Part shown: positions 21,540 through 53,560 of the stretch, piece after piece
Layout: every line of letters starts with the position of its first letter
How positions within the stretch are numbered: position 1 is the first letter of the stretch
Source of the DNA: Polytrichum commune
Taxonomy: Eukaryota; Streptophyta; Polytrichopsida; Polytrichales; Polytrichaceae
Length of the DNA: 64,000 nucleotides
Direction of reading: 5' to 3'
NCBI GenBank assembly: GCA_950295325.1
Contig: OX485804.1
Coordinates: 34,410,001-34,474,000, forward strand
The notes under the pieces: generated by a model
The model's database searches: none
The model's input: the letters and a program-made list of their open reading frames with translations, nothing else
What the model was told of the DNA's origin: nothing
Program-made: the position numbers and the translations under genes

Positions 21540-22815
21540 GACTAACTACTGCTGCTGCTGCTGCTGCCTCCTCTGCTGCTGTTACTGCTACCTTACTTAC
21601 AGTTGGAGTCCTTGTTGGTAACGAGGAGCTCTTTCGGGCTCCCCCTCCCCAAACATAGCCGAGACCGCGGGTGCCTCCTCATCATCACCCCCCTCCTCTT
21701 CTCTTGAAAATGGGACGGATGAAAAAGTAGATGCGCAATTTCATCCATCCATACACCCAGCCTCAGAGCCGTTCCCAATCCCATGCCCTCATCCATCACA
21801 GCATATATAGCCCACCCATGCCCCCAGTATGGTAAGTAACTCTACAAGACAGCTCACTTTTCACTGGTTTCTCTCTCTCTCTCCTCCCCTCCCCTTCTCT
21901 CTCTGTCTCTCTTTCTCTCTCCCTCTCCCTCCCTCTCCCTCTCTCCGAATTGCATAAAAGAAGCAGCCAACTCCTCACTGTGTTTATGAGCTCTCTCGGT
22001 TAACTGCAGCGGTGACACAACTCCTAAAGACACTCTTCCTCCTCTCCCTCTCCCCATTCCGTCACTGCTTCGACACTGATCGGAAAGATCTCGCTGTTGC
22101 AGCTAAAAGCACCGCCTTTGGCCCCGTGTGGGTGCAGTCGGACAACATTGTGTCTGTTGTTGCAATTCTTTCAGTGTGGGGGGTTAATGTCTTCTGGGTC
22201 ACATTGATCAGGAAGACGCCACATTGTGGTGGTTTGTGAGGGTTGATGGTGCTTGAAGTTCTCCCTCTCTCTCTCTCTCTCGCAGCAAACAATATTGAAG
22301 GTGGTGTCTTTTTTGGCACCGTGGTGCTTACCATATGATCACCTGGCTCCTTTCTAAAAGCATTAGCAATAGCAAAATCCAACATTTCCCACCTCTGCCT
22401 CTTTTCCTTCCAGCCTTCGAAGAGGGTTGTTAGGAACTCTCTCTCTCTCTCTCTCTCTCTCTCGCCTGCTTGCATTTGCTCAGTTTCTTCAACACTAGCG
22501 AATTAGCGTCAACAGCATCAGGGTCACTTAATTTCGAGACTCCATTGCCGGCAGGGAGTTTCTTGATATTTACCTATTCACCGAAAGCCTATTTTTGGTT
22601 TTTGTTGTGAGCAAATTTGAAATTATCCCTCACCCTCTTTAGTGCTCATACAGTATACTTCTGCTGCAGTAACTCTTCCTCTCTCTCACACACTCACTCC
22701 TAATATCCTATCCTATCCTATCCTCAAGAAAGTATGAGATTTTCTGTTTCTTCCTCGTAACCTCAGAGCTCTGACAGGCCTGTTGTGAATTGCTCCTTTG
22801 CATATTGTCCAAAAC

Positions 22816-22864
<49 letters not shown>

Positions 22865-22955
22865 GCCTAACCTACAGCTGCTGCAGTGTTCATGCAAAGA
22901 GTGTGACAAGCCTATTATTACAAAATACTGTTATCTTATCACCAACAGCTGCAGC
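21540..22955 (+). promoter_or_regulatory. CT-rich upstream and leader region of the EXORDIUM-like gene
   Basis: The sequence becomes richer in CT tracts and trinucleotide repeats towards the gene: GCTGCT repeats at about 21,550-21,590 and CT tracts at about 21,870-21,945, 22,263-22,281, 22,437-22,463 and 22,817-22,860. The last tract ends about 95 bp before the chosen start codon. Long pyrimidine tracts in plant promoters and 5' leaders are common, and this is the likely role here. A confident TATA box and transcription start could not be placed. Confidence 0.5.
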
Positions 22956-24011
22956 ATGGCTCCCCAGTTTGTGAAGCTCACCACTCTGTTTTGTGCTGTG
23001 TGTGCCATGGCGGTGGTGATGGTGGACTCTCGTCCATCACCCTTATTTTCCATTATAGGCTCAGATATGGAGACTAGTTCGTCTTCTTCTTTTTCTGCTT
23101 CCCCAATAGAAGACTCGGTCAACACCGGTAGAAAGCTGTTCAAGCTGGTGAACAACCCATTGGTGTTGCCCTACCACAATGGGCCTCTCCTGGCAGGCGC
23201 TGGAGCACTGAACGTGTATGTGATATGGTATGGAGCTTTCACCGCTCCCCAGAAGGCCATCATCTCCGACTTCTTTGCCTCATTCCAGCAACCTGCTGCC
23301 TCGGTGCACCCATCCGTGGCAAGCTGGTGGAAGATGATCCAAGGCTACAAAGACAACAAAAACAGGATCCCCGCCGCAACCGTGAAGCTGGCAGGGCAGA
23401 GTGTGGACAGCTACAGCCTGGGGAAGAGCCTGAAATCTGTGGACATTGAGGCTCTGGTGGTGAAGTCTTTGGGAGTGTTCCCCACCGATCCAGCCGCCAT
23501 TTACTTTGTGCTCACAGCTGATGACGTGGCTGTGGAGGGGTTCTGCATGAACACATGTGGCAGCCACACTTTCACATCGGCAGGGGCGTCCACCAAAAAC
23601 TTCATGTTGCCTTACGCCTGGGTGGGAAACTCAGGGACACAGTGCCCCGGACAGTGTGCATGGCCTTATGCTTTGCCCCAGTATGGGCCTCAGAATGCGC
23701 AAGCTTTGGTGGCTCCCAATGGCGATGTTGGAGTGGACGGTATGGTCATCAACATGGCAAGCATGTTGGCTGGAACTGTCACGAACCCTTTCAACAATGG
23801 CTATTACCAAGGTGACGCCTCTGCTCCTTTGGAAGCTGCCACTGCATGTACGGGGATTTATGGAACTGGGGCTTACCCAGGTTACCCTGGACAACTCATC
23901 CAGGACCCCATCACTCGTGCAAGCTACAATGCTCAAGGAGCCAACAGCATGAGGTATTTGCTACCGGCTCTGTGGGATCCTGCCACACAGACATGCACCC
24001 CTGTGTCTTAG
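22956..24011 (+). CDS. EXORDIUM-like secreted protein (phosphate-induced protein 1 family)
   Basis: Single-exon gene for a 351-residue protein of the EXORDIUM/PHI-1 family (Pfam Phosphate-induced protein 1, PF04674). Members are apoplastic proteins linked in Arabidopsis and tobacco to brassinosteroid-dependent growth and carbon status; their biochemical activity is unknown. Residues 1-25 form a hydrophobic signal peptide, a Ser-rich linker follows at about 40-50, and the family domain runs from about residue 63 to the end. It opens with the typical NPLVLPYHNGPLL and NVYVIWYG segments. Cysteines are at 197, 201, 230, 234, 298 and 347, with CMNTCGSH and CPGQCAWP as landmarks. The frame is open upstream through the CT repeat but without an ATG, so the ATG before MAPQFVKL at 22,956 is chosen. 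It is intact, slightly longer than the roughly 310-residue Arabidopsis members, and intronless as usual for the family. Confidence 0.93.
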   Translation: MAPQFVKLTTLFCAVCAMAVVMVDSRPSPLFSIIGSDMETSSSSSFSASPIEDSVNTGRKLFKLVNNPLVLPYHNGPLLAGAGALNVYVIWYGAFTAPQKAIISDFFASFQQPAASVHPSVASWWKMIQGYKDNKNRIPAATVKLAGQSVDSYSLGKSLKSVDIEALVVKSLGVFPTDPAAIYFVLTADDVAVEGFCMNTCGSHTFTSAGASTKNFMLPYAWVGNSGTQCPGQCAWPYALPQYGPQNAQALVAPNGDVGVDGMVINMASMLAGTVTNPFNNGYYQGDASAPLEAATACTGIYGTGAYPGYPGQLIQDPITRASYNAQGANSMRYLLPALWDPATQTCTPVS

Positions 24012-29599: not shown

Positions 29600-29790
29600 A
29601 AGGCATGTAGGAAGCATAAAGCAAAGACTTTGAGAAGGCTTGAAGAACTCAGATTGCGGAGGCACGCACCAGCAAGCTCACGAATTTTGGAGTTGGGGCA
29701 TGCAAAACTGCTCAATTTGAGAAAGAGCTACTATGGAATCACATTGCAGCAGCGAAGTGGAATTGTCATGAAACTCAACAGAAGCAGGTG
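29600..29790 (+). pseudogene. Possible decayed leucine-rich-repeat coding fragment
   Basis: One plus-strand frame reads LRRLEELRLRRHAP, a short gap, then LELGHAKLLNLRKSYYG. This resembles the spacing of leucines in plant NLR-type leucine-rich repeats. A second leucine-rich stretch is found on the far side of the transposons, at 37,540-37,560 joined to 38,869 onwards (CSELKVEDCRRLIAL). No NB-ARC or kinase motif is present nearby. The assignment rests on composition alone and is weak. Confidence 0.2.
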
Positions 29791-29794
29791 AGAC

Positions 29795-30040
29795 AAGTGG
29801 AGGTCATCTAGTATCTTGACGACGTTCCTAACAATTTTGGTGTTGCCAATCCTGCTTTGCGCTAATAATTTGAGGATTCATGAGGAGTGATTGTCGCACG
29901 CTTAGTACTGTGCAACTTTAATTATCTTTCTATAGGCTTCAATTTGGTGTTGAACATTGGATTGAGCAACTTCTCTATGTTGTTACAGTAGGGAAGTGAA
30001 CAAAGTGCTTGAGGCAAATCTGGTGGTCACCTCGTATCTT
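29795..30040 (+). repeat. Degenerate tandem-array unit, left of the Plavaka-like element
   Basis: Two GTATCTT anchors (29,811 and 30,034) bracket a unit with TGAGGATT(C/G), GTCGCAC and ACTGTGCAACTT landmarks, then a GAACAAAGTG(C/T)T segment. The same order recurs at 37,070-37,260. The unit pattern stops just after 30,040, which is the basis for placing the left border of the transposon there. Confidence 0.6.
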
Positions 30041-30074
30041 CTAATTTCCATCTCAAATTTGCCTTCTATGAGTT

Positions 30075-30420
30075 GTTGTATTGTGACAATCTATTCACAA
30101 TCAACCATTGTAAAGGCATTGTAAATTTAAAAAAACAATGACTAAATATGTAATGTTTCAATAGAGAATATCTCAATGTTGTTGCAATTGAAGTATGTCA
30201 CAATGTTGATCCAAATTGAACACATTCAATGCGAATTTCGTACATGATTGTAATACTATGGTTGGAAATTGGTCTTGAAACAATGTCTTGACAATGGTTT
30301 GTCAGTGGCTGTTGATTCTTTGCCTTTACAATGCTCAATTGTTTCAATGTTGGAAAATTCTTCTGTTATTCAATATAGATACAATATTGTGTGAATACAA
30401 AAGCAAATACTCAGTAAAAA
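30075..30420. repeat. Left subterminal repeat region of the Plavaka-like element
   Basis: Repeated short motifs on both strands: TATTGTGACAATC, CCATTGTAAAGGCATTGTAA, CAATGTTGTTGC, CACAATGTTG, GAAACAATGTCTTGACAATGG, CAATTGTTTCAATGTTGG and ACAATATTGTG. They are likely transposase binding sites by analogy with CACTA elements. Confidence 0.6.
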
Positions 30421-30435
30421 AGTATGAATTTTGTA

Positions 30436-32335
30436 TCAAAATTTGTATTTATTGAGAAAGAAATGTCCTACCTTAGAAAAGTTGGGTACTACATGTATTG
30501 CACGTAATACACTAGCAACTTCAAAAACAACATAGGCTGTAGGCAAAGATTGCCACACAAGCTCAGGACAACCAACTAGTCTAGAAAGGTGATTTGCAGG
30601 CACTTCCCTGTACATTCTAAGAAATACCAATTCTTTGCAAAGTTTTTCCCCATCTTCACTTATCACATTTACCTTAAAGAGAAGCCTTATCTGTCCATAT
30701 GATGTCACTTCATCTTGGCCACTTGCTTCCATTTGAACGGCTACACTACTAAACCAAGGTCTGTGATGAAAGGAATGTACTGCTCTTGCGTACATAGGCC
30801 AATCAGCAAAGCGATTAGAAGACCCTGATGGTATGGCCAAGGATGTAAAAATTCGGATGACCTGCATTAGAATCTGTGCATTGGTTAATAATGTTTCTTG
30901 TAACATAATCACAAGATTGAATTGACACACTACTTTCATTGGTTCTTCTATGAATATTACAGACATACAAACTATTAAAGGTTAAGTAAACAAGCCTATC
31001 ATGATTTTACATTTACCTCATCTGAAACCAGCTTGTTATCCATTTTATATAGGTCAAATGCTCCAATAAATTGTTGACGTAACTCAGGCTGCTCCATCAA
31101 GATCCTTTGTGCACTTTTGGGTACAAAATTTAATTGTGTTGAAGCATAAGAAAATTGAAAATCTTCTTTCATCCAAGATAATTGCACGTTGACCCGATCT
31201 CCAGATAGTATATTGGCTCCTGTTGCAACAGCCTTAGACATAATATGTTAATAAGGTTAGTAGATTGTTTTTCCTCAACACCTTATAAAATCATAAACCC
31301 ATTTTTAAAATTCTAAAATAACCTCTAGATGGAAAGGAAGTTGCAGTATTCAGTTCATCAAGTGTAGGGAAGTTGAAGCATTCACCTCATCAAGTGCAAT
31401 GTATTTTTCAGCCTTGGTCTTTTCCTCATATCCATCCTTGTCCATTGATAGTTTTCGCAAAGCATTTAATCTGTAGTTGTGTTTTAAAATTTGAGATGTT
31501 GCATTCCTTTTGTTACTTGCTCTGTAACCCCTCTTCATTAGTGTAATATGAAGTTGTTCATATTGGTTAGTGCTATACTCCCACGGAAGTCCTGATCTGC
31601 GTATACAATCTGAAAAATGTGACATAGCATGAATTTTGATTGTTTTGAAGCCTGATTTTTGCCACCTTCCCATAGCTTGTTTGAAAGTCATAACAGCCCT
31701 GGAATCAAAACAAACAATATTCATTAGTAAAAACTTATATACCAACACATATTTTCTTGAAATATTACGAGACTTTTACACATATACATTGTTGTTGCAC
31801 TAAACAAGTAATTAATATTACCTGTTCATGGTGTCATCCATGAGCTCCAATGAGTTGCTGGTGTGCTCATGGCTTCGACTTGCCAACTTGTACCATTTCA
31901 AAAACATTACAAAAGCCTTGATGACATTATCCTCAAATAGATTGATAAGACAAAACACAATCACCTGTTCAAAACACATACAATAATATCTTTGTAAGTG
32001 TTATAGAAATAATGCATACTAAAAAAAATAACCAAGTAAGAAACAAAACTAATACATGTAGACCTTACCTGCATTACAGCCCGATGCTCAAAAGCAGCAA
32101 AGTTAGCGTTGGAGTTGAAGTAGCCTCCTTTATCAGTGCCTGGAACTCTGTAATGAGAGTACCTTGATTCTTTTTGTATTGTTGCCAAACGCTTGTCCAA
32201 TTCAAAAATGGCCTTAGAAGTGCAGACTGCCCCTTCACTAGACATATCTCTCAAAATTGAAACCAAGGTTTTAAAAATCCCAATATCTGCTTGGTGGAGT
32301 ACATCAACATTGATAGCTGCATATGGATTGCCAAG
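30436..32335 (-). pseudogene. Plavaka-like transposase, C-terminal part, N-terminus missing
   Basis: Five minus-strand exons join in phase with GT-AG introns: about 32,335-32,069, 31,964-31,822, 31,698-31,386, 31,232-31,017 and 30,861-30,436 (stop). The first exon opens with NPYAAINVDVLHQADIGIF, close to the DxLHQxDxGxF signature of Plavaka-type transposases (Pfam Plavaka, PF18759), which belong to the CACTA-like group described mostly from fungi. The third exon has KIHAMSHFSDCIRRSG, YSTNQYEQLHITLMKRGYR and SNKRN, the conserved His-rich block of the family. The last exon ends with VASVLRAIHVVPNF and FFLNKYKF, the usual C-terminal fold end. The missing part would hold the zinc finger and most catalytic residues. 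The exon stops where captured host DNA begins, with a small PYAATKLPYTTKL duplication at the junction. Surviving exons lack internal stops. Confidence 0.75.
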
Positions 32336-32367
32336 TTTAGTAGTATATGGAAGTTTAGTAGCTGCAT

Positions 32368-32424
32368 ATGGAAGCCATCGCAGAAACGATTGTAGCTCAG
32401 CTGCTTACTTACCCGCTTCAAGCG
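32368..32424 (+). pseudogene. Captured first-exon fragment of a peroxisomal NAD carrier-type gene
   Basis: The frame from the ATG reads a short leader and then IVAQLLTYPLQAV, followed at once by a good donor (GTAAGA at 32,425). The AQLLTYPLQTV segment is a hallmark of the N-terminal transmembrane helix of the plant peroxisomal NAD carrier PXN, a mitochondrial-carrier-family protein. No other carrier repeat (PxDxxKxR) follows. It lies between the two divergent genes of the transposon, so it is best read as host DNA captured by the element. The ATG itself may come from the junction. Confidence 0.55.
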
Positions 32425-33056
32425 GTAAGATTTCGTAGTCTCGAATGTTTTGAATTTCCTAAATTCTGCTGCTATTCTTACATGAACAGATTCCCTCGGC
32501 GCAGGTTCTGCTCTGACATTTGTGGTAAGGCTTTAGGGTTTCGGCTATGGTGTCTGTCGTCCTAAACTTTCTGTCGTTTTAAACCTTATGTGAACTCATA
32601 GGGTTATATATGCAAACTCATCACATCATCATTAGTGACTCGGAGCTAATTCTTCTCCCAGACTATACTGCTGAGAACAATTAGTTCATGTTGATGAACC
32701 TCTTTTTCTGGAATTATATTGACGCAAGTTGAACCATGTTTCTAAACTGTTTTTCGTGGCTCAATCTTCAGGTACAGCTTCACATCATTCTTAGTGGGAA
32801 TCACTTTCAGAACGAACTTGGAATGTGGATGAGGTAGGTGTATCATTGATAGTTGTAGCTTCTGTATTGAATTCCAAGTAGTTGTTCCTGTATATTTTCT
32901 GATTGCCTTATCTTATGTATCAAGTGTCTTTATGTTTCCTTCACAGTTAGCAACTAATGTTGAATTCAGCGCTCCCTCGTATCCCTGAAACCTCAGAGGT
33001 TCTAAGACTTCAGTTTCTTATTTAGTGTTTCATCAAAAATCCAATTACTACCGCTC
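32425..33056. other. Central non-coding spacer between divergent genes of the element
   Basis: Possible splice sites occur, for example CTTCAG before 32,772 and a GTAGGTG donor near 32,838, but no exon can be assigned to a family. The region could hold a bidirectional promoter for the minus-strand transposase remnant and the plus-strand gene, together with intron DNA of the captured carrier gene. Confidence 0.35.
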
Positions 33057-33716
33057 ATGGAGCAATTCGAACTACAGGTGTGTCCATCTGTGCATCTGAA
33101 ATTGCAAGAACGAGCAAAGTTGGGCTCATTGCAAAGTTGGACTTAAGATCGAACTGCGTGCAAGTTATCAAGCAACCCTGTTTACTGCAGTAGCTTAAGC
33201 CTGCATCGAGACAGGTCCTTCCGGTACATCCGAATGCCATTGATACAGCTGCCTACAGGTGAGTCAATTAGGAAAAAAAGGCGACTTCAAATGAACTACA
33301 ATGCTGAACTTGGGAGCTTGGGCTTGTGTAAAGTGTGAGCTTGGGGTGGGATCGGTCCAGTGCTGTATGCATGTTCTGGATTTGTTGAATCTGCTATTGC
33401 GTTCATGTACACTTGACCGACCACGTTGTTGTTCTAGACTCTCATGATACAGTTTTCCTGAACTCTTGAAATTCAACCAGTTATTGCTCAATCTCAACCG
33501 GTTCATCTGTAACTAGCGGTTGGTTGGTTCTCCCTGTTCATTGTGTGTATGTGCCTTTCAGTGTGAAATTGAAGCTGACCTGACATGATGTCTTTGTTGA
33601 TATTGGATGTATAATTGCAGGAGCATGCCAAAGGGCCAGCAGCTCAGGCTCGAGAACTGGAAGAGTTGACGCAAATTTATGTTGCCAGGGGCCTCAACTA
33701 CACGCTCGCTAAGCAG
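33057..33716 (+). pseudogene. Captured exon(s) resembling a CCC1/VIT-family transporter
   Basis: A clean 96-bp exon (33,621-33,716), with TTGCAG before it and GTAATT after it, reads AAQARELEELTQIYVARGL and then NYTLAKQ. This is the pattern of the cytosolic loop in bacterial-type CCC1/VIT iron or manganese transporters (ELxxIYVxRGLxxxLAxQV). A short upstream exon, ATG to CAG at 33,057-33,077, has a GTGTGT donor and would splice to it in phase 0. No membrane segments are present, so it cannot be a working transporter. Its exon end is also in phase 0 with the acceptor at 34,180, so a fusion to the downstream gene is possible. Confidence 0.4.
33447..33545 (+). repeat. CCGGTT-motif repeat fragment inside the transposon
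   Basis: CTTGAAATTCAACCAGTTATT, CTCAATCTCAACCGGTTCATC, TGTAACTAGCGGT and GGTTCTCCCTGTTCATTG reproduce the landmark order of the array at 6.2-7.6 kb. It lies in a putative intron between captured exons. Confidence 0.65.
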
Positions 33717-34198
33717 GTAATTTGATACTTCCTTGCATATAAACTCCTTGTGTTAACCTCAAAGTTCACATTCATTGTGAAAGTCTGGAATTGATCAATC
33801 TGCAAGTGTCAGCAATTCTTTTGGTGGCCCTATAAGGCCACAAACATGTAAATGCTACCCTCAATCTTCAAGTGGAATGGAAAAACACGGGAGACAAATT
33901 CCTTCATGACATTCATCCCAGTAGCCAATTTCTGTAAAGGAAATTACCAAATTATGATGATGGTGGTGGCAAAATTGTCTATTATCACATGTGTACTGAT
34001 GCCACACTAGATACAAGGGGAAAAGAGAAAAGGCGGACAAAAATCTACAAAATGTATATATCGAAGTGTATAATTTTAATGCTAGATGTAGGGAGAAGAT
34101 AAAAACTGTTTCTAATAGCAAAGGTGAACTTAACAGTCTTGCTAAGTTCACTAAAAGGTCACTAAAAGGTTGCTTGGCAGGTTAGTTTCAGTGGAACC

Positions 34199-36197
34199 AT
34201 GACAGGCGCAAGGAACAGTTCACAACTTTGTTACACAAATGCATTCAAAAGGCTTGCAGGCCGGAATAGAAGGGTTGTTCTAAGCCAGAATGTTAGGAGG
34301 TTGAGCCAGTCTTCAAATGGAGGTTGTGATGAGATCAATGCCCATGGCAACCAGCCAGATACGATACTGGGAACTCCTCTGGACAGGCAAGCATAAATTG
34401 AACGGCTTTCTATTTCTATTAGAAGCTACTCTTTCATTTACACATTCCTCTTGAATCTTAAGTTACCTTGTTCTTTGTGCACATAATTTTAATCAATGTT
34501 TTGATCATAACATTGGTACTTTCAGGCTATATTTGAGTAGTTTGCAAGGAGAACAAGCTTTGGCTGGCAATAGAGGTCATCCTGGTCCAAGTACAAGAAG
34601 GATGAATCATCCTGGACATAGGTATCACTTGTATATATTATATTAGTATAAGATGGTTGATTTAATGTTAATTTCACATGATTTTAATGCAAAGTAGTTG
34701 TCTCTAATTTGTTGTAATTGCAACCATGATTGTTGTAGTCTGGGAGCAAAAGAGCATGTTGCTGGCGGTGGATGCCAAGATCAAATGATGAGAGATGCAG
34801 AAGCAAGGCGAAACCCTCTTTCTGAACACAGGTTTGTTATGTGAAACTCATATTAATTCAATGCCCAGTGCTGCATCTTGGTATATAACTCATGTATATG
34901 TTTAATGTGGTTTACAAGACATTGATTTACATTTGTCTGTATCAGCCATGATGTACCGGTATTGGAAGACCATTTAGAGGGAAGACAAGATGGAGTTGCA
35001 GGCCATGTGGCTGAAAGACAAAATGGAGTTGAAGCTTCCGGTGATCACATTACATTGGAGAGAAGTGCATTACAACGGCTTAGAGATGATCCGTGGAGGA
35101 AAAAAGCCAGAGAACTCACAAAAGAAAACCTTGTTCTCGTAGAATCCCTGAAAAGGTTCCAGGAGACTACCGCTTCAAAACCGAAATGTTGCCAATTAAA
35201 GCATGTAAAGGTATGTCAATATATTTTAAATTAAAAATATGGCCATTTCTTTGTTAATGAATGTTTTTTTTTGGGGGTATTACAACTGAGAATAACTTTT
35301 TATTTATTGCAGAAAGTTATGACCGATGTTGCAACAAAGATTCTTCTTGGAAATTTTGTCTTTTCAACTATGTATCCAACAGAGGACACTTTGGTTGAAT
35401 GCATCTTGGCTGCCTTTAACATACCCCCTGATGACCACACAATACGTGAAAAGTTTCTAAAAGAATGGGGAACTCTTGGAGATGAAGAATCCAGCTTACA
35501 TTCGTTTGCCACACGCAACATTCGTGAGAGAAGAGGTTCTATAACAAGAGATTTGAGAAATGAGTTGTATAAGGTTCTTGGGGTAACAAAACCAGAAGTA
35601 GATGCTACACCTCAAGATTTGCAAACATATGCAACACAGTTACGAACACTGTGTGAAGGTATGTGGATTTGTTAATTTAGTTCATATGAATTTTCATGCA
35701 TAACGTTGAAGTACTTAAAATGTAGATGAGTATTGATAAAAAAAACTTTTATTAAATCACTTATGACATGTACTGAATTGTGTGTATAGGAGATCGTTGG
35801 AGGTTTGGAAGTGGCTCAAATGGAGTGCCAGATCCTTATGGATCACAAGCTTTTTATGGTGCAATTGCTAAGGTTGTATTGGGTAGGAGGTATGATCGAA
35901 AGGGCACTGTTTGTGTGACTTTGGAGCAATGTGGTTTCTTTTACCACGTGGTGAGTCAAATTATTCTTAACCTGGCATCCTCTAAATTTTTAATATTAAA
36001 TGATGTAATTACCTCCAATTAATATAAATTGGCTATAATTCTTATTGCAGATGAATTTGGCCATGCATGGAAAAAATTTGACAGAAGGCCATGCATCCAT
36101 GCACATCCGTGCTATGAAGTGTGCTGAAGATGAGATCAAGAAAAATCTTTGGCGGATGTCGCGGGTTATCATAGTTGAAGCTGACGTTGATCGGTGA
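34199..36197 (+). CDS. Seven-exon gene of unknown function inside the Plavaka-like element
   Basis: Seven exons join in frame: 34,199-34,386, 34,526-34,621, 34,739-34,831, 34,946-35,210, 35,313-35,658, 35,790-35,950 and 36,051-36,197 (TGA). Introns are GT-AG except the first, which has a GC donor (ACAG|GCAAGC). The product has 431 residues. The N-terminal half is polar and Gly/Asn/Arg-rich. Residues about 190-205 have a charged helix (WRKKARELTKEN). The C-terminal half looks like a folded domain, with KVMTDVATKILLGNFVFSTMYPT, a basic NIRERRGSITRDLRNELYK helix, and FGSGSNGVPDPYGSQ-FYGAIAK near the end. I do not recognise the family. It is divergent from the transposase remnant and appears intact, so it may be the accessory (TNP1- or TNPA-like) DNA-binding protein of the element, or a captured host gene. 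Upstream exons could extend it by phase-0 splicing at 34,180. Confidence 0.7.
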
Positions 36198-36539
36198 AAA
36201 TAGGCTATCTGTAGGAGATTGTAATAGAAATTCAAGTGTTTGTGCCATTGATTTGATAGAACTTACTTAGTGTGTACAGTTTGAAATTTTGTATGTAGTG
36301 TACAATGCAGATGATTGAACATAACCTTTAATCAAACATTTGTTGTGTTTTGTTGAAATTGCAAATTGCAGAAAATACTTTGTGTTTGTATGAAGAGTTA
36401 CATTACGGTTTGCATCTTCATTTGGGTGAAGCTCTTAGTTTGTAGGTCATTGTTTCAATTTATAATTTGTTACTCCTATTTACTCCATGAACTACTTCAA
36501 AATAATTACCTGGAAGGTCAAGGGACGTGCCATTTGTAA

Positions 36540-36900
36540 GATGACAATCCTGCATTTGATAATGTAATCAACATCACTTCAATTTAATATCAACATAGAA
36601 ACCGTGATTTAAAAATGCAAAGTTGTTTTTATATTATTGCAATGTAAAACGTAACAGTGATGTTTCAATAAGCAATTGACATAAAAAATCATCATGCTTA
36701 CAATATTGTGTTTACTTTGTGACAATGAATGTTGTTTAGGCATTGTGAATGCATTGTTTCACAAAGCTTTGTTTCTCCATTGTTTCTACATTGGTACATT
36801 TTCTATTGTCTCCATATTGTTGACTTGATGTTATTATATTGTTCCCCAAAATAAATGGAACAATATTGTTTTGACAAAAAAATCTCAATGAAACAAGCAT
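36540..36900. repeat. Right subterminal repeat region of the Plavaka-like element
   Basis: Motifs of the left end recur: ATTGCAATGT, ACAATATTGTGTTTAC, GTGACAATGAATGTTG, GGCATTGTGAATGCATTGTT, TTCTATTGTCTCCATATTG and AACAATATTGTTTTGAC. The palindrome ACAATATTGT is present at both ends. Confidence 0.6.
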
Positions 36901-36902
36901 TT

Positions 36903-37560
36903 GCCGTCTTTGAGATGTCGGTCTCGTGAGTAGCAACACTTCTTCTCCACTTGTTGTGTCCTAAAATTAGAGGATTCTAGGAACGTGTGCATTTTCTACC
37001 AACAACAGTGTTCTCAAATGACTTAGAGGTTCGACTACAACTGTGTAATCCATACTTCAAATTTTATACTATTTGAGGAGTATTGAGGATTGAATGTCGC
37101 ACTCTTATTGCTGTGCAACTTGAAACCTTTCAACAGACTTGATTTCGTATTGGATTTAGGAGGTTTAATTTCTTCATGTAAGTCGAGTAGCTTCCCTTTC
37201 TCCTTGCAGGAAGAAACTGAACAAAGTGTTGGAGACAAGAGCGGAGGCATCTTGTATCTTACCGCCGTTTCTTATGATTTCGGTCTTGTGAGTACAAGCG
37301 ATTCTTCTTGACTTTGCTGTGTGGTAACATTTGAGGATTGTAGAGGAATGTGTGCATTTCCAATTTTAGTTCTATCGACAACAGTGTTCTCAACAACGTC
37401 TTAGAGGTTTGAAGTACACTACAACTGTGCAATGCGTGCTTTGATATTCTTCAAGTGAATGGAGATCTCGAAGTGTGCAATCTGAGAAGTGTTTCAATCT
37501 GGTACTCGAAACTCAAAGGAAACCGTTCATAGCAGCACTATTATCGACTTGCTCTGAGCT
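36903..37560 (+). repeat. Degenerate tandem-array units between the two transposons
   Basis: Two units with a period near 370 bp share ordered landmarks: GTCGGTCTCGTGAGTA at about 36,919 and TTCGGTCTTGTGAGTA at about 37,279, then AGGAATGTGTGCATTT-like, CAACAGTGTTCTCAA at about 37,005 and 37,379, and CTTAGAGGTT(C/T)GA. The second unit is cut by the hAT element at 37,561 and continues at 38,869. Confidence 0.7.
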
Positions 37561-38860
37561 CCCGGGGTGGCAACTCAAACAAATAATTACAGGGGGCTCG
37601 TCCAAAAATTTCACAATTTCACAAAGCATAGATTATGTAAACATAATCGTACATATACTCTAGATTATGTTTCAAATAATCTGGATTCATTATTTCCATT
37701 AAAGTACAAAAATTGTATAATTCTCTTGGCAATCCGACCACTTCTGGACGAAATCTTGTCGCTTCAGTACTGCAGAAGACGATTATACAGAGAAATGTGA
37801 ATGTGAGTTGCGATCAAGCATGAACCATGTGTGGATCGATCCGAAAAAGGGGTGTGCAATTTAGCCTGGCTAAACACCTACGCAAGGAGAAGCAGACAGA
37901 GACAGAAAGCAAACGCTATATACTCTGATCCTGCGCTGTGCTTAATTTCACCGAGAATTCGCGATGAGAAATCAACCAGCCTTTCTACACCTAACCGTGC
38001 AATCAGCATGCAAGCCTTCCAAACCGATTCAAGTTTTTTGCATCATAATATTCAGCCTGGCGAAAATATCTACACAAGATTGGAGAACGGGAGGACAGCA
38101 AGCAGCACAATATAGGAACTCTCTTCCTGCGCTATGCATAATTCCTGCGAAGCCCGGGATCAGAAACCGACTGGCCCTCTCGCACCTAATTAATTTTTAA
38201 CCTTGCGAGAGAGCATGGAAGGCGATACAACACTATTATGCACTCTTATAAGCACTGACAATCGGAATAATCATGGCACTTGGATGATCAATAATCTCTC
38301 TCGATCGTTTGAGGTCTACTCTTCAAGGTTTCCGCATCAGAATATGCAGCCTGGCTAAAAAACTCTACACGAGATTGGAGAAGAGGAGGACGACAAGCAA
38401 CCCTAAACCCCTAAACCCTAAACAAAAAGGTGAGGCTTGTAATGATGTGTGCACAAATGGGTGCTCTACAAACGGGTTGAAGAGTTTCAGAATAGAATCG
38501 GCAGAGAAGCCGCTGAGAGAAGTTAGGAAGGGAATTAGGGTTAGGGCTTACAAGTCAAAATAATCTATATTATCTTCAAAATTTTGTAGATTATACAAAT
38601 TATAATTAGGTCTGATGAAGACCAGATTATGGACAAGCTCCCCTGTCCAAGAGATAGTCCACATTATGTTCAAATTATTGATGTATTATTACACACATAC
38701 ATGTTCAAATCAAAAAATTATTACGTATTTTGAACAGTCTCAATGTGCACTACATCACTCCATTCTAAGTTTTGTACAATTGTTCTTTGGTATGAACGTA
38801 CCAAGATAATATGGATGGATTATCTGTTACATATTATTTTGCAATAGTTGCCACCCCGGG
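37561..38860. mobile_element. Non-autonomous hAT-type element, 1300 bp
   Basis: The ends are perfect 15-bp inverted repeats, CCCGGGGTGGCAACT and its complement, with partial similarity inwards (AAATAAT). An 8-bp target-site duplication TCTGAGCT flanks the element at 37,553-37,560 and 38,861-38,868, as expected for the hAT superfamily. The interior encodes no transposase. It holds a three-times repeated block beginning AGCCTGGC near 37,863, 38,055 and 38,348, and a telomere-like CCCTAAA stretch at about 38,400-38,422. AGATTATG-type motifs lie inside both ends. The perfect duplication and repeats suggest a recent insertion. Confidence 0.88.
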
Positions 38861-38868
38861 TCTGAGCT

Positions 38869-39025
38869 AAAAGTTGAGGATTGCAGAAGATTAATTGCTC
38901 TCGCGTTTCTTTTCTTTTTCCCTCTTGTTCTTCAATGCTGTAAGCATTCTCAACAATGTCTAGAGGTTCTGAATGGAGTAAAAATTGTGCTGCCAAATCT
39001 TTACTATTTTGTGTCGCATTCTCGT
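38869..39025 (+). repeat. Tandem-array unit right of the hAT element
   Basis: GTTGAGGATTGCAGAAG, AGCATTCTCAACAATG, TCTAGAGGTTCTGAA and AATTGTGCTGCCAAATC continue the unit interrupted at 37,560. Without the hAT element and one duplication copy, the reading LLSTCSELKVEDCRRLIAL becomes continuous. Confidence 0.6.
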
Positions 39026-49838: not shown

Positions 49839-52323
49839 CTATTGTGGAATCAAGGATATAAGTTGACAGACCCCAACCACCCACTGCAATCCAAAATGGA
49901 ATTATTTACTAATTTTCTTAAAAAAATTGATAACATATATACCTTGGCAGTGACGGTGCATTGGACGAAGCGCTCAGGCTGCAATCTGGAGAAACTGCAA
50001 TACTGAATTTCCAAGCTCAAAAGCTCCATACTTTGAATGAGGAGGCTCTGGAAATCAGGTCGAGGCTGGCTACACACCACCTCGATTTGAATCTCCTCGT
50101 CATCCAACAGGGATCCATGCACTTGGAGCTTCCGGATATAACTGCCTGCAGGGTTGGTGATCTTGGAAGTGCTCAAAGTGAGATTTGTGCCATTAATTGC
50201 CGTCTGATGCATACAGGTCACTAGATCTTCTGAGGAAGATGCAGACAAAGGGGACCCTGTTTCACACACCTTTGGGGTTTGTTGTCCAGATGCTACCCTT
50301 ACCCTAGTGCCAGTGCCTTTATTTTGGTTTGCAATTTTTACTTTGCATTTGCCATCATCTCGTTGTTGTTGTTGTTGTTGTGGTGGTGGTGGTGGTGATG
50401 ATCGTGCAATATCATCAGCACGGATTCTCATCTGGGAGCGGCGCTTTAGTAGCTCTTCCTTCCTATGTTGCAAATCCTTCACGAACATCATGGCGTCTTC
50501 CACGATCACAGCTCTCTCTCGCTGCACAAGACCACATTCATTCTAACACAAGTCACAACTTGCAATCATCCAGAATTAGATCATTTCAGAATTCAAGGCA
50601 TCAAAAGGGGTCATTGAGTTAGACACTAATTAAGTGATACCCCCTCTCTATTGCCAATTCGAAGGATTTTAGAAAAAGGAGGGAAAAGAAACAAGGGATC
50701 CACGTCTGACATGAATGACCAAAGCGAAGTATTATTCCCCCACCATGTGTCTCAAGTGCATGACAAATGCAAAGGAGAAGGTTGCTCTAGACTACTTATA
50801 CTTGTGCACACGATTCCGACCCCAACGCCTCAATAGTGGATAACAATGTAGGTTGAGGTTGAAGTCATTCCCACCCCACCTCAATAGGAGGAATAGGATT
50901 GAGGTCAACTTGAATAGCCCCCTCCAGCTTCCTCTAGCTTGAATATAAGTCTTCGTAGTGAGGTGGACTATTGAAGCTGACTTCAATCATGTTCATCTTA
51001 CTGAGGTTGAGGATGGAATGGGAATGTCTCCAGCCTCAACCTGTATTGTCATTCAATATTGAGATATTGAAATCAAGGTTGAGGTTGGGGTGGGAATTTG
51101 ACCCCTCCCTAACTCATTTTGTCCTCCAAATATTATTGGAGAATGTGGGTTGGGGTTGAGGTCGGGTGGCCTCGATGTACTATGTGTTGTGGGGACTACA
51201 CTACTTGTGTGCCATTTTAGCAACTTGCTACAGACACCTATCCCATATTGGTTCAATGCCCCTGCAAACGGCGCTTTCTCCAATCGTTCGCATGGGACGA
51301 CCAATATGAGATTGTTTTCTTCTCCACTTCTAGTACCCCCATCTTTTGAAAAGAAACCATCTCGTATTGGGACCCCCTATCGACTCTCACCCAGGATAAA
51401 CCAAACTTATGAATCTCAAACACACTTGTCTGTGCAAACTTGGCACTGCAGTTCATTTGTGATGTATTATCAGGTTGAGTATAAGAATGCTTAACACCGT
51501 AACTCACTCACTTACCCACCAACAATCCATACTAACTTGCTGTGGTCTCTAAACTTACGAAAAACTGAATTTGTAGGTCATGAAATAGAAGAGTTCATAC
51601 TTTTGCAGCAGATGGAAGCAGCGACTCCAGAATGTTGTACTTCACGGCCATGTCGTCCCTGCGCTGTCGTTCGCGAACAATATGCTCTGCTTTAGTGGGA
51701 GCCCGAAACTGCTTGGATTTCTCGACTCCTGAATCTGTGGTGTCAACAACAACCTTAGCCTTCTTCGAATTCGCCTTCCTCACCCCAACCATTTCCTTTT
51801 CCTCTCCTGTGCAGAATTTCCTGGCTCTCCTCCCTTTAAAGCAGGCTTCTGCGGGCGGCTGCAAGCTGCTGTGGGTTTGCATGACAGCCTGAGTGGAAAC
51901 TGATGGTGAGAAATTAGGGTCGCATGAAGTTGGTGGCTCAGAACTGAAGCTGTTTTGTGGAGCTGGAACGGATTGAAGCAAGTTCATGAAGGAGCGGTGG
52001 TACGAGGCAGGAGTGGTGGTATTGGAAATTGCAGCATTCTCAATCTCATCGTTAGTGTTGTTGGTGTTGTAGGTGTTGTAGGAATTGTTGTAGGTGGAAG
52101 CTGGAGAAGAGAAGGAAGACAATTCGGTTACAGAGAAGCTAGTATTTGTGACAGGCTCAAAAATTGGGCTAATGTCATCTCGAAGCTCAGGGAGATCATC
52201 CAGCATGTGCAGGCCAATACTGTTCATGTGATCAGGAATAGTGCCGATGTCGGAGAGCTCAGGCAATTGGGTCTGCCACTGAAACATTATGTCCTCGAAT
52301 TGGTAGCCCATCGTTTGATGCAT
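49839..52323 (-). CDS. bHLH transcription factor with C-terminal ACT-like region
   Basis: Three minus-strand exons join in phase 0: 52,323-51,601, 50,521-49,943 and 49,883-49,839 (TAG), giving 448 residues. The bHLH domain spans about 210-275 and is split by intron 1 after the loop (ESLLPSAAK | RERAVIVEDAMMFVKDLQ). The basic region HIVRERQRRDD keeps the H-E-R pattern of G-box/E-box binders. A Pro5-Gln6 tract lies at 284-294. Residues about 368-434 (YIRKLQVHGSLLDDEEIQIE and following) look like the ACT-like dimerisation region of many plant bHLHs. The N-terminal part is acidic and Ser/Asn/Thr-rich, as in activation regions. It should act in the nucleus; target genes are unknown. The open frame extends to 52,347 only through a TTG, so the ATG at 52,323 is used. 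A TTTCTTGCAG just upstream could instead be the acceptor of a further 5' exon. I could not place it in a bHLH subfamily. Confidence 0.85.
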
Positions 52324-53560
52324 CTGTGAGGTGCCTGCAAGAAACAAGCAAAAACCAAATTAGAGATGAGTCAGGTTCCATTCAACTATCACTATTTCAT
52401 TCTTCCTCAAGTTTTTCGCAGCGATAATGCTGTCAAACGTCTGTTTGCAACTTACAATCTAATAAAGTGAATTGATATTCTGTGGCAACAATAATTTTTG
52501 CGGTGAATGTGAATTTTTTACCCTCTGAAAATCGGCCCGTATAATCCATTCTCACTGCTGCTGATGTCATTTAAGGTCAGTTGCATCAGTTTCTCGGTAC
52601 ACACCGTGGACGAAGATTTGAGTCACTTACCACTGGATATATACATGATCTATTTCCAGACTACAAGCTATCAACCGCACCCCATTTTCAATTGCAGCTC
52701 ATTTCTTAAGTTGTTCACAACTGGCAACTAATAGTATTGAGTTTTCAATCGTCAGAAGATACTAATAAGCCTTGGATCGAAGCAAAGGCTCAAAGCGAAA
52801 TGAATGCTCCGGTTGAAGTGACAACTTCAGAAGCATTGCAAGAGTCGAGTAAGGACGGAAGATGATGAGTTTGCAGCAGCAGAACAAATCGAACCTCGTG
52901 TCCACGTAGGAATAATCTTCGAATCCCCTGGCAGCTGATGCGTGGCGTTCGTGCAATTCACACAAACTAACTACAATGTCGACACCTACTAACACCGTCA
53001 CTCTGAGTGAGCCTTTGGCATTTAGCAGTCTAACCCAAAAGTGGAAACGAACTCGTCTCGACCCAAAACTCCAAGACTAGTAAGCTTTAGGTGTCATCAA
53101 AGCACCTAATATTGACTTCTCTTTTCTAAAGACGACCGAAAGCCAGCCCAACTCTCAACACACGGCGTGCTACAATGCAGAGGACCACCAAAACACCACC
53201 ACCGATACACAACTTCGGATTAGAGCTTCATCAAATCTCCCCCGGCTTAACCCAGACTTATACACACACTCCAAGCTTATAATTCTCGTGTTCTAACACG
53301 GTGGTGGATATTAAACCCTGCACTAGCTAGGGAGGATCTACTAGAGAAGCTACAGAAATGAACCAAACCTTCGAAAAATGATTCAGCTGTGTAAGCTAAG
53401 CTTAGAATGATCTTCTCCAAATCCCCCTCCCACTCCCTCGCTTCCCAGCTTTGCACATGCAGCCTGTTATAGGGAACACCGAAACATCATTCATCACCTA
53501 TATATGTTGCTGCTTCGGACGAGAGCTGCTTGTCAAAGTGGCCGGCACAACTTCCCTAAA
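52324..53560 (-). promoter_or_regulatory. Probable 5' leader and promoter region of the bHLH gene
   Basis: No repeat of the families seen elsewhere invades this stretch, in contrast to its surroundings. The minus-strand frame at 52,762-53,001 (79 codons) could be an upstream exon or short upstream frame, but no ATG-to-donor structure is convincing. Core promoter elements were not identified with confidence. Confidence 0.35.

Follow-up and report, generated by a model that had tools for sequence, protein, structure and literature searches.

A cargo-carrying, probably non-autonomous Plavaka-lineage transposon with a divergent second gene in the genome of Polytrichum commune

Plavaka transposons have been described mainly from fungi. 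The CACTA/En-Spm elements of plants have a two-protein organisation, TNPD and TNPA, of which TNPA binds the En/Spm ends, and Pack-MULE and Pack-CACTA elements are carriers of gene fragments. Here we describe an element in a 64,000-nucleotide stretch of the plant Polytrichum commune (the window; C2:34410001-34474000 of an assembly of 408 Mb in 64 contigs, other loci being given as contig:Mb), which is very probably a non-autonomous, cargo-carrying, cut-and-paste copy of the Plavaka lineage, a member of the CACTA/Mirage/Chapaev/Transib clade, and whose fuller relatives possess two divergent genes, one for a Plavaka DDE transposase and one for a previously unnamed protein. In the sections of Kojima 2025 (PMC12730594) devoted to this clade, its members are given CA..TG ends and 2-5 bp duplications, PlavakaB the termini CATCA..TGATG with 2-3 bp duplications and Zisupton an 8-bp duplication, and the C(2)C and H(3-4)H motifs are common to CACTA/EnSpm and Plavaka; as far as its main text goes, neither "accessory" nor "second protein" occurs, and "third protein" occurs twice, for Harbinger. 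Beyond fungi, EnSpm-Plavaka transposons are mentioned in part of a paper on Auxenochlorella (PMC12636532), and Plavaka giant repeats of the protist Amoebidium in a passage of another. Among the open-literature papers listed as mentioning Plavaka, none concerned a land plant by its title; subscription papers and repeat databases lie outside that scope, and plant Plavaka families may stand there under EnSpm or other names.

Alignment to sibling copies elsewhere in the genome fixed the borders of the window element, and a 2-bp target-site duplication (TC) flanks it. It is complete at 30049-36917 (6,869 bp, 5'-CATCTCAAA...TTTGAGATG-3'), its true ends lying within 17 bp of the borders, 30041-36900, that an earlier note on this sequence had proposed. 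A sibling on C2 aligns to window positions 30049-32344, and one on C4 to the same interval and then to 34167-36917. The left terminal inverted repeat (CATCTCAAA, 30049-30057, plus strand) was placed by these alignments and is preceded by the dinucleotide TC at 30047-30048; the right repeat (TTTGAGATG, 36909-36917, minus strand) is followed by the second TC at 36918-36919. A right end near 36902, obtained with BLAST alone, was dropped, since the sibling alignment puts the end at 36917. The left end region (30049-30450) is matched at nine genomic places, at two of these over 339 and 128 bp only, and the right end region (36318-36917) at six, with 98-100% identity. A stray TTTGAGATG in the copy at C3:43.43 Mb was rejected as the end of that copy: its flanks differ, and the right-end search gave no match there.

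An empty site is available within the window itself: the unit at 37071-37441 is a paralogue of the flanking repeat and lacks the element. When the element and one TC are removed, the joined flanks align to this unit with an ungapped junction, the alignment having a 12-column gap about 16 bases to the left of the junction and gaps elsewhere too. The insertion site is a diverged repeat, with units near 29770, 29868/36920, 37071 and perhaps 38863 (window 29770-39000); further short repeats occur at 37859-38399. Duplications of 2 bp flank all ten elements for which both ends were seen, namely TC, AA, TA, TA, AA and GT in the window family and TG, TG, TA and AT in a sibling family of 8-10-kb elements. 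The ends read 5'-CATCTC[A/G]A.., giving termini CATCTC..GAGATG; the element with the GT duplication has one substitution in its right terminal hexamer, as read by eye.

The minus-strand gene consists, as the earlier note had it, of five exons (32404 to 30436) that join in frame into 477 aa and contain the motifs quoted there. Sequence comparisons support its assignment as the C-terminal half of a Plavaka transposase. Exon 1 is preserved at 32069-32344 (the GNPYAAINVDVLHQ block): homology to the siblings stops at 32344, the open frame continues to 32404, and homology begins at residue 21-22 of the protein. Exon 2 follows at 31822-31964, then exon 3 at 31386-31698, with HAMSH (H3H) and YEQLH (presumed last acidic residue), exon 4 at 31017-31232, and exon 5, including the stop, at 30436-30861. 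In Pfam, the joined 477-aa protein found nothing significant (best E 0.086), nor did single exons. This lack of a match is explained by the deletion of nearly all of the region covered by the Plavaka model, PF18759, from the window copy. The same half had no match among PDB sequences at E up to 1, and no relative of a 236-aa piece of it was confirmed among viral contigs.

The family assignment is carried by the relatives. In this genome the PF18759 profile matched 10 exons (best E 1.4e-12), distributed over 9 loci, and it matched nothing in 14 control genomes of unspecified identity; at all nine loci exons homologous to the window gene lie downstream on the same strand. Joined N-terminal parts of this same gene from two sibling families matched the model over positions 28-322 of 325 (E 3.3e-41) and 41-318 (E 2.8e-36); the end of the model falls near the VDMLHQ block, at which the window protein starts. 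The Pfam search that the earlier note had envisaged for the window protein alone was thus fruitless, but its Plavaka diagnosis stands through the siblings, to whose C-terminal half the window gene is homologous exon by exon. Motifs of the families comprise YIDQT, DHPEG, PCSMC/PCSIC (C2C), HAMSH (H3H) and the E of YEQLH/YEQMH/YEHLH, the assignment of the catalytic D among them being putative; C(2)C and H(3-4)H lie between the second D and the last E across the families, and the HAMSH block is present at 13 of the 15 loci with a VDVLHQ block. A further distinct Plavaka locus, with two PF18759 exons and no match to the second gene, was observed at C5:20948961-20950273.

The earlier note had spoken of a "CACTA/Plavaka" lineage, and we therefore considered whether this is a plant CACTA/EnSpm element with an ordinary CACTA transposase and a TNPA-type second gene. 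Such an element would belong to the same wider clade, and the two-protein layout does resemble TNPD/TNPA. The C(2)C and H(3-4)H motifs occur in both groups (PMC12730594). Against this, the termini are CATCTC, the duplications measure 2 bp and not 3 bp, and the two joined sibling proteins, searched against Pfam at E up to 1, found PF18759 as the sole family and no CACTA transposase; we consider the CACTA explanation very improbable, and the CACTA half of the earlier label is disfavoured.

Returning to the Plavaka reading, everything before GNPYAAINVDVLHQ is gone from the window copy, which retains of the C(2)C/H(3-4)H motif set only HAMSH and the E, and the copy would therefore be unable to make a catalytically complete transposase. 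The N-terminal half, beyond its last part, was not seen in the window copy or in those at C3:43.43 and C4:0.93 Mb, the C4 sibling keeping DHPEG and SPCSVC; for the copy at C2:36.76 Mb, the genome-wide PF18759 search found no match and about 11 of its 22.8 kb were examined.

Divergently from the transposase remnant runs a plus-strand gene of seven exons and six introns (34199 to 36197) that joins in frame into 431 aa, in agreement with the structure first proposed; the term "intact" used at the time suits this gene and does not extend to the transposase. Its exons lie at 34199-34386, 34526-34621, 34739-34831, 34946-35210, 35313-35658 (exon 5, present in all three families), 35790-35950 (DPYGS block) and 36051-36197 (stop codon at the end), and splice sites of both genes are GT-AG save for one GC donor at 34387, following exon 1. 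The protein belongs to no recognised family, as the earlier note had claimed: it had no significant match in Pfam (best E 0.029), two non-significant ones among PDB sequences (E 0.49 and 0.91), and no relative of exon 5 was confirmed among viral or bacterial/archaeal contigs. DUF6532, considered on account of a motif, was not supported, PF20149 being absent from the protein matches; a PF20149 search of the genome likewise gave no match, nor did any control match in that search.

What distinguishes this second gene is its company. At least 54 exon matches to it and at least 76 to the transposase half were found in the genome (lower bounds, only best candidates being scored), and grouping these by place with gaps under 25 kb gave 26 loci. 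Both genes are present at 14 of these loci, in divergent arrangement at every one. Further copies that share the two genes as well as the ends, for which the earlier note had proposed a search, do exist. Among the nine PF18759 loci, seven have a match to the second gene, the others being C4:54.5 and C5:20.95 Mb. Exon 5 is 98% identical to that of the window within its own family, 43-45% in the second family and 28-30% in the third.

One could suppose that the second gene is a host gene captured by an ancestral element and devoid of transposon function, given that these elements do carry other genomic DNA and that the protein matches no transposon family. Its presence in three diverged transposase families (exon 5 at 28-45%), always divergent from the transposase, speaks against this, as do the five loci where it stands alone: at four of them identity to the third family is 95-98%, and the fifth is a diverged exon interrupted by a stop, so no match resembles an independent host gene. 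Capture of a functionless host gene is accordingly judged quite improbable. Somewhat less easily dismissed, yet still rather doubtful, is a protein acting on the host and not on the element ends, in the manner of VANC of VANDAL elements, a silencing suppressor. Plants silence transposons via DNA methylation, the protein is not a transposase, and non-autonomous copies retain it; sequence and fold searches are neutral, neither for nor against. As judged from its recurrence with the transposase, the second protein most likely works with the transposase, perhaps binding the element ends as TNPA does. More tentatively, and as a possibility we would not put on a par with this, the plant Plavaka elements may constitute a two-protein system of their own, in which the transposase has an obligate partner, the first member of a new protein family, with a role comparable to that of TNPA or RAG2, the partner being retained even by non-autonomous copies as it would be required in cis or to hold the ends around a large cargo.

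In place of the N-terminal half of the transposase, the window copy has a foreign insert (32345-34166), a composite of fragments from elsewhere in the genome that is not in the three near copies and parts of which are common to three shorter, about 5.7-kb derivatives. A DNA search traced it to at least four other genomic places, bearing out the earlier suggestion that captured host sequence had replaced this half. Positions 32369-32591 are about 99% identical to the three derivatives and 32600-32734 are 97-98% identical to them. Within the former, 32389-32499 matches C1:75.23 Mb (95%) and 32500-32579 matches C3:7.09 Mb (98%) and C3:6.99 Mb (95%). Four colinear fragments of C3:23.412-23.414 Mb (85-92%), separated by breaks without evident splice signals, make up 32606-33453, and a fragment of a gene of the VIT (vacuolar iron transporter) family, with its source at C1:17.82 Mb (89%), occupies 33455-34140. 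This source, the only one of the cargo sources shown to be a gene, has two exons matching PF01988 at positions 1-72 and 103-212 (E 9.7e-25 and 3.9e-24); the captured VIT1 exon (33621-33716, plus strand, 32 codons) falls between them, with a weak match at positions 78-101 (E 0.097). A dispersed repeat inside the cargo (33453-33544) matches more than 20 genomic places among those listed, several within the window.

The VIT fragment contains intron sequence, so DNA was captured; spliced, RNA-level capture is disfavoured by this and by the lack of clear splice signals at the source breaks. Copying would have run from the source loci into the element. In the derivative that was tested, three of the four sources are represented by longer stretches and the VIT source is absent, and the C4 copy has 1.4 kb in common with that derivative's cargo (98.3%), so the cargo was gained, multiplied and then variously trimmed.

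The transposase half is 89-96% identical in the near copies at C2:36.76, C3:43.43 and C4:0.93 Mb (75% for one overlapping C4 piece) and about 40-70% identical to the other families; the three derivatives have a C-terminal piece of it at 79%. These derivatives (C2:2.19, C5:19.98 and C5:25.74 Mb) are 98.5-99.95% identical to one another, and since copies with related cargo reach 99.95% identity, movement was recent. By these comparisons the window element belongs to a family that is small and has been mobile recently in this genome. Chance juxtaposition of unrelated pieces or an assembly artefact, for which nothing was found, is refuted by copies on several chromosomes that agree in order, ends and cargo, and retains practically no probability.

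Several further observations concern individual copies. The one at C2:36.76 Mb measures 22.8 kb between TA/TA duplications, and at C2:36.762 Mb an 821-aa gag-like open reading frame (zinc knuckles, by eye) lies inside it, probably as part of a nested retrotransposon. At C4:54503196-54503535, a 339-bp left-end fragment of the window family runs directly into the start of an 8-10-kb family member, an apparent nesting of one Plavaka family within another. The 128 bp at C2:46235222-46235349 match the left end of the window element without a difference and are perhaps a solo end, perhaps a miniature derivative.

A number of results weigh against our interpretation. No window-family copy with a complete transposase was seen. 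The two genes are not invariably found together, as 12 of the 26 loci have one only (7 transposase, 5 second gene). Ratios of nonsynonymous to synonymous substitution among recent copies are only mildly below 1 and rest on few changes (0.37 and 0.66 for the second gene; 0.57, 0.65 and 0.92 for the transposase half), and for each gene one of the copies compared contains a stop. A fold model of exon 5 built from 12 sequences is all helical and of low confidence (pLDDT 69.1), and of the 18 PDB entries it matched with E no higher than 10, the best at 5.6, none is meaningful. Finally, the subterminal motifs that the earlier note had described as shared are the least secure of its elements. ACAATG/CATTGT has 11 occurrences in the two ends (402 bp each) and 89 in the full 64 kb, against a mean of 2.0 and a maximum of 6 in 300 shuffles of the ends; yet it was chosen after the fact, being the hexamer found most often, and in shuffled ends the most frequent hexamer has a mean count of 7.9 and a maximum of 15. 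The enrichment is therefore suggestive and not proven beyond chance, which slightly lowered our confidence in the overall reading.

Taking both sides together, the element most likely moves by cut-and-paste, with a Plavaka transposase provided in trans and the second protein acting as its partner; insertion yields a 2-bp duplication. The window copy would have lost the N-terminal half of its transposase, other genomic fragments taking its place; as the complete transposase is gone and both ends and the second gene are kept, it would have to depend on transposase made elsewhere. Elsewhere in the window lie two ordinary plant genes, one Phi_1/EXORDIUM-like (22761-24011, plus strand; PF04674, E 4.3e-113) and one bHLH (49850-52359, minus strand; E 1.1e-4, above the cut-off). 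The genome, of whose 407.8 Mb seven contigs comprise 406.1 Mb, also has exons for dynein heavy chains (13 matches, 12 of them over the cut-off), which are not known from flowering plants and point to a seed-free host.

A plant Plavaka lineage with exact ends, recent copies, genomic cargo and a conserved second protein broadens the known host range of these transposons, and a Plavaka transposase with such a second protein is a two-component system open to testing. With RAG1 belonging to the same clade, a new partner protein would also bear on how such transposases recruit cofactors.

With Pack-MULE and Pack-CACTA elements, the Polytrichum elements share a patchwork of fragments of several loci, one of them (VIT) shown to be a gene, between intact ends and subsequently multiplied, the difference being that the carrier here is a Plavaka. 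Plant CACTA/En-Spm elements are alike in their wider clade and in encoding two proteins, and differ in the family of the transposase, in their ends and in the length of the duplication. The spacings from D to C and from H to E, near 20 residues, resemble those of RAG1. Transib and RAG1-RAG2 likewise involve a second partner protein, and differ in duplications of 5 bp as opposed to 2 bp. Their catalytic clade is the same (PMC12730594). An 8-bp duplication, that of Zisupton, separates the KDZ group (Kyakuja, Dileera, Zisupton) from the present elements with their 2 bp. EnSpm-Plavaka of the green alga Auxenochlorella (PMC12636532, where mentioned) has a green-lineage host in common with our elements, a likeness by host and name. 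Also among the closest are Plavaka and PlavakaB as outlined in the relevant sections of PMC12730594, with which the present families share a PF18759 transposase, 2-bp duplications, CA..TG ends starting with CATC and the C(2)C and H(3-4)H motifs; they differ from these in their plant host, in the second divergent gene, in the genomic cargo, and in ends of the form CATCTC[A/G]A, whose termini CATCTC..GAGATG have CATC alone in common with the CATCA..TGATG of PlavakaB, to which they are accordingly not assigned.

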